Of a DNA stretch of 64,000 bases, positions 25,877 through 28,104 are shown one piece after another. The DNA is from Chlorobiota bacterium. Its GTDB lineage: Bacteria > Bacteroidota > Ignavibacteria > OLB7. Location of the stretch: NCBI GenBank assembly GCA_016788565.1, contig JAEUSP010000055.1:1-64000 (forward strand), given 5' to 3'. Position 1 is the first letter of the stretch. Each line of letters starts with the position of its first letter. A program made the translations under genes and the position numbers. Under the pieces are notes generated by a model. It had not been told where the DNA came from, searched no databases, and saw only the letters and a list, made by a program, of their open reading frames with translations.

Positions 25877-27892
25877 TTACTCCCGCGCGTCCGGCACGGC
25901 GTGTTCAATGGCTTCGTGGTGCTTAATCTCGATGGCCGCCTCCTGGTGCGCTTTTGCCGCCAGCTTCTCCACGTTGTTCAGATCGTAGAAATCGGCGATG
26001 ATTTCATCCAGCGATTGCATCCCCTTATCCCCCTCGCCATGCACCCGCACCGATGCCGACTCAGCCTCCTGCTCTTTTGCTCCAACAATCAGCATGTACG
26101 GGATTTTCTGCATCTCGGCTTCCCGAATTTTGTAGCCTAATTTCTCCGAACGGCTATCCAACTCCACACGGAACCCTAAGCCATCAAGCCGCTGCTGCAC
26201 CTGCTGGGCGTACTCCATGTAGTGCTCCGATAATGGCAGCACAATCGCCTGGACCGGAGCCAGCCAGAAGGGGAATTTCCCTGCGTAATGTTCAATCAAC
26301 ACCCCGATAAACCGCTCAAGCGAGCCGAACGGTGCGCGGTGGATCATCACCGGGCGGTGCTTTTGGCCATCCGAGCCGGTATATTCAAGGTTGAAGCGTT
26401 CCGGCAAATTGTAGTCCAGCTGAAGCGTGCCAAGCTGCCACTGGCGGCCAATGGCATCGCGCACCATGAAGTCAATTTTGGGGCCGTAGAAGGCTGCTTC
26501 ACCAATCCCAATTTTAAACTCCAAACCAACGGCTTCGGCAACTTTCAGCAGTGCGGCTTCGGCGGTTTCCCACAGTTCATCGCGGCCAACGTACTTCGTC
26601 TTGTTGTCGGGGTCGCGCAGGCTTAGGCGGATGGTGAAATCCTTGAAGCCAAGCACCGACATCACGAACTTGATTAATCCAAGCACGCTCTGCAATTCCT
26701 GCTCAACTTGGTCGGGCCGGACGAACAGGTGCGAGTCATCCACCGTGAACCCGCGCACGCGCGTCAGTCCGTTCAACTGTCCCGATTTCTCGTACCGATA
26801 CACCGTCCCAAACTCGGCCAACCGGACCGGCAAATCGCGGTAGCTGCGCGGCTTGCTGGCAAAGATGTGGCAGTGGTGCGGGCAGTTCATCGGCTTCAGT
26901 AGATACTCCTCATTTTCCTCCAGCTTAATCGGCGTGAACTGGCTTTCGGCGTAGTAGGGGTAATGCCCGCTGGTGCGGTACAGATCCAAATTGCCGATGT
27001 GTGGCGTAACCACTGGCGTGTATCCCCGCTTCTTTTGCTCGGCCCGCAGGAACCCTTCCAGCGTCTCGCGCAGGGCGGTTCCTTTTGGCAACCACAGCGG
27101 CAATCCAAGCCCAATTTCTGGCGTGATCAGGAAAAGCTCAAGCTCGCGTCCAAGTTTGCGGTGATCCCGTTTTTTTGCTTCCTCCAGCATCACCATGTGT
27201 TCATCCAGCATGGATTTTTTGGGGAAGCTGACCCCATACACCCGCTGCAACTGCTTCCGCTTGATGTCGCCACGCCAGTACGCGCTGCTGACAGATGTTA
27301 GCTTCACCGCCTTAATCATCCCCGTGGAAGGGACGTGCGTGCCACGGCACAGGTCGGTGAAATTCCCCTGCTGATAGAGTGTTATCTCACGGTCTTTGAA
27401 ATCCTCCAGCAACTCCAACTTGTACTCATCCCCTTTTTGCTGGAAGTAAGCAACCGCTTCCTCCCACGTGACCGGAACCCGTTTGAACTTGCTATCGGCC
27501 TTTGCTAATTCGGCCATTTTTGCTTCCACCGTCGCCAAATCCTCGTGCGTCAAAACGTGGCCGTCCGCGATATCCATGTCATAGTAGAAGCCGTTTTCCA
27601 CGGGTGGGCCAATGCCGAACTTGGTTCCGGGGAACAGTGCCTCGATAGCCTCGGCCATCAAGTGCGCGCTGCTGTGCCAGAAGATTGCTTTCCCTTCTTC
27701 ATCGTCGAACTTGACAAAGCGGATGAAGGCATCTTCGGTGATGGTGCGGCTAAGGTCGTAGGGTTGATCGTTGACGAAGATGCCAAGGACGTTCCGGGCC
27801 AGGCCGGAGCTAATCGCTTCGGCGATCTCCATCCCCGTCACCCCGTCGTGGAACTCACGGACCGAGCCGTCCAACAGTGTGATGTGGATCAT
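25877..27892 (-). CDS. thrS: Threonyl-tRNA synthetase
   Basis: 671 residues from ATG at 27892, which has AGGAGA nine bases upstream; the ORF extends further 5' but through the leader hairpin. It charges tRNA-Thr. An N-terminal TGS domain (MIHITLLDGSVREF) is followed by the editing domain (FWHSSAHLMAEAI, with a C in RGTHV-like LCRGTHVPSTG) and the class II catalytic core. Core motifs include LRPMNCPHH-like LLKPMNCPHHCHIF, GTVYRYEKSGQLNGLTRVRGF and HRAPFGSLERF. The C-terminal anticodon-binding domain is VQAIVLPLSEHYMEYAQQVQ. The leader upstream (27893-28012) looks like a transcription attenuator. thrS is convergent with the phosphatase gene and divergent from purine nucleoside phosphorylase. 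Confidence 0.97.
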   Translation of the reverse strand: MIHITLLDGSVREFHDGVTGMEIAEAISSGLARNVLGIFVNDQPYDLSRTITEDAFIRFVKFDDEEGKAIFWHSSAHLMAEAIEALFPGTKFGIGPPVENGFYYDMDIADGHVLTHEDLATVEAKMAELAKADSKFKRVPVTWEEAVAYFQQKGDEYKLELLEDFKDREITLYQQGNFTDLCRGTHVPSTGMIKAVKLTSVSSAYWRGDIKRKQLQRVYGVSFPKKSMLDEHMVMLEEAKKRDHRKLGRELELFLITPEIGLGLPLWLPKGTALRETLEGFLRAEQKKRGYTPVVTPHIGNLDLYRTSGHYPYYAESQFTPIKLEENEEYLLKPMNCPHHCHIFASKPRSYRDLPVRLAEFGTVYRYEKSGQLNGLTRVRGFTVDDSHLFVRPDQVEQELQSVLGLIKFVMSVLGFKDFTIRLSLRDPDNKTKYVGRDELWETAEAALLKVAEAVGLEFKIGIGEAAFYGPKIDFMVRDAIGRQWQLGTLQLDYNLPERFNLEYTGSDGQKHRPVMIHRAPFGSLERFIGVLIEHYAGKFPFWLAPVQAIVLPLSEHYMEYAQQVQQRLDGLGFRVELDSRSEKLGYKIREAEMQKIPYMLIVGAKEQEAESASVRVHGEGDKGMQSLDEIIADFYDLNNVEKLAAKAHQEAAIEIKHHEAIEHAVPDARE

Positions 27893-27917
27893 TGTGATCG
27901 CTCTCCTGAAAAATGAA

Positions 27918-28003
27918 AAAGGCAACGAGCGCACGCCTGTGTTGTTCGCTCATTGCCCTTCGTCAGTTCAATGGAATTGGTGTAGCCAGTACAACAGGCG
28001 TGC
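27918..28003 (-). promoter_or_regulatory. thrS leader: terminator hairpin with competing upstream segment (candidate attenuator)
   Basis: On the minus strand a 14-bp stem with two G-U pairs (arms 27947-27960 and 27918-27931) closes a 15-nt loop. It is followed by TTTTTCATTTTT just before the thrS SD. An upstream segment GCACGCCTGTTGT (27991-28003) is complementary to ACAACACAGGCGTGC (27931-27945), which occupies the loop and the first base of the 3' arm; 13 bp form with a 2-nt bulge. The two pairings overlap and compete. No threonine-codon run or T-box consensus is visible. Confidence 0.6.
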
Positions 28004-28018
28004 AGATTTTTGTTGCCG

Positions 28019-28045
28019 CGAAGATACGCCAACCGCTGCCGCCAA
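28019..28045 (-). promoter_or_regulatory. thrS promoter, TTG-N16-TATCTTCG
   Basis: Minus strand: TTG at 28045-28043 and TATCTTCG at 28026-28019. This places the transcript start near 28012 and gives a leader of about 120 nt. Confidence 0.55.
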
Positions 28046-28104
28046 TGCAACCGCCAACGCAGCTACGATTGTGAAAAAATTAGCTTCATCATAGATTGCT
28101 CTCC

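Follow-up and report, generated by a model that had tools for sequence, protein, structure and literature searches.

In Escherichia coli, expression of thrS is controlled at the level of translation: threonyl-tRNA synthetase (ThrRS) has been shown to bind an operator in the leader of its own mRNA and to block ribosomes (PMC6542539). The sequence of the tRNA-Thr anticodon is centred in a leader hairpin loop, closed by a 7-bp stem about 34 nt before the start codon (PMC9976931, PMC6542539). This domain 2 corresponds to the anticodon arm of tRNA-Thr, in which G35 and U36 serve as identity bases for threonine (PMC9976931), and the operator has a second anticodon-like domain. Firmicutes thrS T-boxes place a leader terminator and a competing antiterminator before the same synthetase gene, and a 2008 survey found no T-boxes in Bacteroidetes/Chlorobi (PMC2494555). 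In the TRAP/trp and L10/rplJL attenuators of Bacillus subtilis, a leader-bound protein tips the balance to the terminator (PMC3913778, PMC4538822). Bacteria that use neither T-boxes nor leader peptides must likewise match synthetase supply to tRNA demand.

Here we analysed a 64,000-nt stretch of DNA (the window) and compared its thrS leader with those of its order, an uncultivated order of Bacteroidota represented by five genomes from three genera of one family; with only three genera, the number of independent lineages is small. The gene itself occupies 27892-25877 of the minus strand, with the start codon at 27892, and has full-length relatives (96% to 49% identical) in nearly all of 99 genomes. 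Upstream of it, in minus-strand order, lie a promoter, a conserved block and a terminator, followed by the gene; the leader element measures about 100 nt. A preliminary description of this DNA had proposed two competing helices before thrS; the sequence bears out their coordinates, and both are kept behind a conserved promoter in all five genomes. The features are as follows.

28047-28050, minus strand: TTGC, a -33-like promoter element, which precedes TATCTT by 19-21 nt in each of the five genomes
28019-28026, minus strand: TATCTTCG, a -7-like promoter box (TATCTT in all five genomes), with the predicted transcript start near 28014
27994-28003, minus strand: upstream arm GCACGCCUGU of the competing helix, its core GCCUGU invariant in five genomes
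27985-27999, minus strand: anticodon-arm-like element GCC-UGUUGUACU-GGC, in all five leaders of the order
27983-27993, minus strand: conserved block YGUANNGGCUA adjoining the upstream arm, the probable ligand-binding region, with 8 of 11 positions invariant in five genomes
27947-27960, minus strand: 5' arm of the terminator stem, three pairs of which are changed on both sides
27931-27940, minus strand: ACAGGCGUGC, part of the terminator loop together with a single base from the 3' arm of the terminator, the 3' partner of the upstream arm, with ACAGGC invariant in five genomes
27916-27931, minus strand: 3' arm of the terminator stem and the U-run, the latter weaker in genomes G002 and G004
25877-27892, minus strand: thrS, threonyl-tRNA synthetase, the presumed regulated gene, its identity secure from relatives

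The promoter assigned earlier to this leader is present in all five genomes. Since the Bacteroidota TAnnTTTG promoter box is located at -12 to -5 in Flavobacterium (PMC9723704), the same spacing predicts a transcript start near 28014, so that about 12 nt of RNA would precede the 5' arm of the competing helix. The predicted start is thus upstream of 27960; a start downstream of that position had been named in advance as incompatible with attenuation. Within one genus, two species are only 28-48% identical in the sequence preceding the promoter region, as against 88-100% from the TATCTT box to the terminator. Boxes like TATATTCG (TATATT) also precede other synthetase genes in these genomes, whose leaders are plain, and the same architecture was not seen at serS, proS, glyS and hisS. 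It is worth pointing out that in one genus (g1) GGCAAC at 28017-28012, around the predicted start, has a potential partner in GUUGCC of the terminator 3' arm; this pairing would be relevant only if the true start were a few bases upstream of the predicted one.

Directly before the thrS ribosome-binding site there is, exactly as had been claimed, a 14-bp terminator stem followed by a U-run. Positions 27960-27947 pair with 27931-27918, including two G-U pairs, around a 15-nt loop (27946-27932), and the U-run begins inside the 3' arm. Across the five genomes 87% of the stem cells are paired and three pairs are changed on both sides, so that a terminator stem before the gene is conserved, as attenuation requires. 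The covariation score of the stem is 0.193, whereas shuffles give 0.109 and slid controls no more than 0.071; the GAGC/GCUC at its top is nearly invariant. The fold z-score is -2.7 for a 201-nt region and -2.3 from the predicted start. Taken as a whole, the leader probably contains a transcription attenuator of some kind. Clear U-runs follow the stem directly in G000, G001 and G003, but they are poor in G002 and G004 (UGUUUGC). Weak U-runs would be expected if ThrRS blocked ribosomes here as it does in E. coli, with the hairpin being a structural domain of a translational operator instead of a terminator. However, the clear U-runs of the other three genomes speak against this, and so does position: the anticodon-like element described below is located 93-107 nt before the start codon and not beside the ribosome-binding site, as the E. 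coli element is at -34. We consider a translational operator quite unlikely. In G003 (L005), an ATG within the terminator stem, 51 nt upstream of the thrS start, is in frame with the gene; it is not conserved in the other genomes.

The second helix, a pairing retained by each of the five genomes, joins the terminator loop to the upstream segment. The register proposed originally, 28003-27991 with 27945-27931 (9+4 bp around a 2-nt bulge, 13 bp in all), is present; a simpler one consists of 10 contiguous bp between GCACGCCUGU at 28003-27994 and ACAGGCGUGC at 27940-27931, and it is this portion that is conserved in relatives. When the upstream part was shuffled with dinucleotides preserved, an equally long complement to the loop appeared in 0.6-2.6% of the shuffles per leader. 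Such a chance test of one leader by itself is modest evidence, and the comparison of five genomes is stronger. The two helices had also been described as mutually exclusive. They directly share one base, and in four of the five leaders the spare loop bases are too few for both to form fully, in keeping with that claim. The exception is G003: its loop is larger, and its shorter competing helix, which carries a two-pair CG extension of its own, might coexist with the terminator stem as a pseudoknot.

The preliminary description had called for covariation in both helices. The terminator stem provides it at the three pairs mentioned above, but the competing helix provides none, since its 6-bp core never varies in the five genomes; the four outer pairs each fail in one sequence. 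An invariant core neither proves nor disproves the pairing, and this is the main gap in the argument. It is what one would also see in a fixed, unregulated leader, in which an ordinary terminator-like or mRNA-stabilising hairpin is accompanied by upstream complementarity that has been inherited but plays no part in switching. A plain terminator immediately upstream of thrS, with no block of this kind, is indeed found in many relatives from outside the order. Yet the block, like the two arms of the competing helix, is nearly invariant across three genera while the surrounding sequence has diverged, and the complementarity is rare in shuffles. An unregulated leader therefore strikes us as improbable.

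Predicted folding is in line with a switch, with the reservation that all figures were computed at equilibrium, for truncated RNA beginning at the predicted start site, and do not describe kinetics. In the nascent RNA, before the terminator 3' arm has emerged, the competing helix is computed to form with a probability of 0.88-0.999 in all five leaders. In the finished leader the terminator is favoured in four of the five, with a near tie in G000. Masking the conserved block raises the computed terminator probability to 0.86-1.0 in every leader.

This block, a second invariant stretch (GUANNGGCUA) beside the pairing arm, had not been mentioned in the preliminary description. Together with the core of the arm it reads GCCUGUYGUANNGGCUA, a sequence found exactly once per genome, about 100 nt upstream of thrS, in all five genomes. 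Part of it can be written as GCC-UGUYGUANN-GGC, in which Y-G-U occupies the exact centre of a 9-nt loop that three G-C pairs would close. UUGUA at 27994-27990 equals positions 33-37 of tRNA-Thr(UGU), and U33-Y34-G35-U36-A37 is the same as in the loops of the tRNA-Thr(UGU) and tRNA-Thr(CGU) of the genome. The sole variable base of the match is the wobble base, while G35 and U36 are kept; the threonine anticodon sequence is thus centred in a putative leader hairpin loop in all five genomes, as in the E. coli operator, with a much weaker stem. The arrangement occurs in five of five leaders of the order, in 3 of 162 other thrS leaders and in 0.24-0.76% of shuffles, and a looser version of the search recovers GUGAUCU-UUCGUGU-GGGUCAC at -34 in E. 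coli, the known mimic. These figures are to be read with the fact that the match was spotted post hoc and not predicted beforehand. Moreover, the 3-bp hairpin has a predicted probability of 0.68 in genus g1 and about 0 in the other genera, its formation not being predicted in G002, G003 and G004. A different anticodon mimic, the CGU at 27935-27933, had been suggested previously; it sits in the terminator loop and is absent in G003. Judged by the sequences, U-Y-G-U-A at 27994-27990, where the upstream arm meets the invariant block, appears to be the better candidate.

The anticodon-like element raises the question of whether tRNA-Thr, rather than ThrRS, might be sensed. The leader had been said to have neither a T-box nor a threonine-codon leader peptide, and we agree on both counts. 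RF00230 has no match in the window at the gathering score and none genome-wide at E <= 0.001; the short ORFs in the five leaders are neither conserved nor do they contain a run of threonine codons, so we rejected a leader-peptide attenuator. Uncharged tRNA-Thr could still bind the leader directly in some other way and stabilise the antiterminator. The logic fits a synthetase gene, the loop has ACA, a threonine codon, in all five leaders, and UGG occurs within the block in four of them. Against this, besides the missing T-box, ACA is already accounted for by the competing helix, and UGGN does not match the NCCA end of the tRNA: the tRNA-Thr genes have U73 (3' end UCCA), so that UGGA would be needed, whereas the leaders carry UGGC or GGGC. 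Direct tRNA sensing is therefore unlikely.

A compact invariant unpaired block adjoining a helix that controls a terminator might equally suggest a metabolite riboswitch, for example one for threonine, with the block and the competing helix forming the aptamer. However, no Rfam 15 family matches the leader at the gathering score (E values up to 10 give unrelated weak matches only), genome searches place the element at thrS only and not at biosynthesis or transport genes, and the term "threonine riboswitch" was not found in the open-access literature searched. We thus regard a riboswitch as very doubtful. The leader itself is undescribed in the same literature, most subscription papers being outside the scope of that search.

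The promoter, the block and both helices occur together once per genome and always at thrS in the five genomes. A covariance model built from the five leaders recovers its own members at E of about 1e-26 or better and finds nothing comparable among 391 genomes from the class, where the next best E is 2.6e-5, or among 395 from the phylum, where it is 3e-4, in large searches whose strict filters can lose weak matches. Consequently, no occurrence of the element is known from outside this order or away from thrS. The best matches outside the order, in seven genomes, were dismissed because they merely resemble the terminator or are other DNA that lacks the complete block, and 29 pattern matches in viral contigs were judged to be at about chance level for such a pattern. 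Other families of the class have thrS leaders of their own. In many of them a tRNA-Val (GAC) gene is located upstream of thrS, followed by a short terminator (CGGAG..CUCCG and a U-run) only 20-45 nt before the gene, with little room for a promoter; there, thrS may be transcribed by read-through. Some families have a terminator before thrS without the tRNA gene. In one other genus, four leaders have the motif ACUGGNAGUGAUUCAUNNCGGAAUUC in common. The GGAGC in front of it might form a helix with GCUCU of the terminator loop, and judging from these sequences the leaders are possibly a second, unrelated thrS attenuator. The ThrRS proteins of the order also have a C-terminal tail of about 25-30 residues (window positions 25880-25970), which ends in AIEHAVPDARE or similar in four of five genomes but not in G002, and which is missing from the other ThrRS of the class that were aligned.

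Based on these observations, we propose how the leader might work. As the polymerase leaves the promoter, the upstream arm GCACGCCUGU would be transcribed first and would pair with ACAGGCGUGC once the latter has emerged and before the terminator 3' arm exists, acting as an antiterminator and letting transcription proceed into thrS. If a ligand held the upstream block, the terminator hairpin would close and transcription would stop before the gene. The likeliest ligand is ThrRS, which would recognise U-(U/C)-G-U-A centred in the small GCC/GGC hairpin. Free ThrRS holding this mimic would prevent the competing helix from forming, so that transcription would stop and the enzyme would silence its own gene. 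By drawing ThrRS away, uncharged tRNA-Thr would allow the competing helix to form and thrS to be transcribed. Termination itself, the identity of the ligand and the sign of the response are what we infer here. Given attenuation, the chance that ThrRS is the signal seems to us a little over one half; the full statement, transcription attenuation controlled by ThrRS, is put forward tentatively.

If ThrRS-controlled attenuation is true, feedback through tRNA mimicry is not confined to translation but can also work at the level of transcription. That the element turned up in a single order and in none of the neighbours sampled points to fast turnover of such regulators. How does this leader relate to the systems known so far? 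With the E. coli thrS operator it shares the gene and the anticodon sequence centred in a hairpin loop, but here the putative mimic has a stem of 3 bp, lies about 100 nt upstream and overlaps the antiterminator arm; ThrRS binding is established in E. coli and proposed here. With the Firmicutes thrS T-box it shares a synthetase gene preceded by a terminator and a competing antiterminator, but it has no T-box sequence, Stem I or RF00230 match, and its antiterminator is made by pairing with the terminator loop. The latter also distinguishes it from TRAP/trp and L10/rplJL, which use a different RNA and a different protein, the protein here being a proposed one, while the logic would be alike. It is thus conceivable, if somewhat short of probable, that in one order of Bacteroidota an anticodon mimic read by ThrRS is at the same time one arm of an antiterminator, combining mimicry of the E. 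coli type with a TRAP-like switch.
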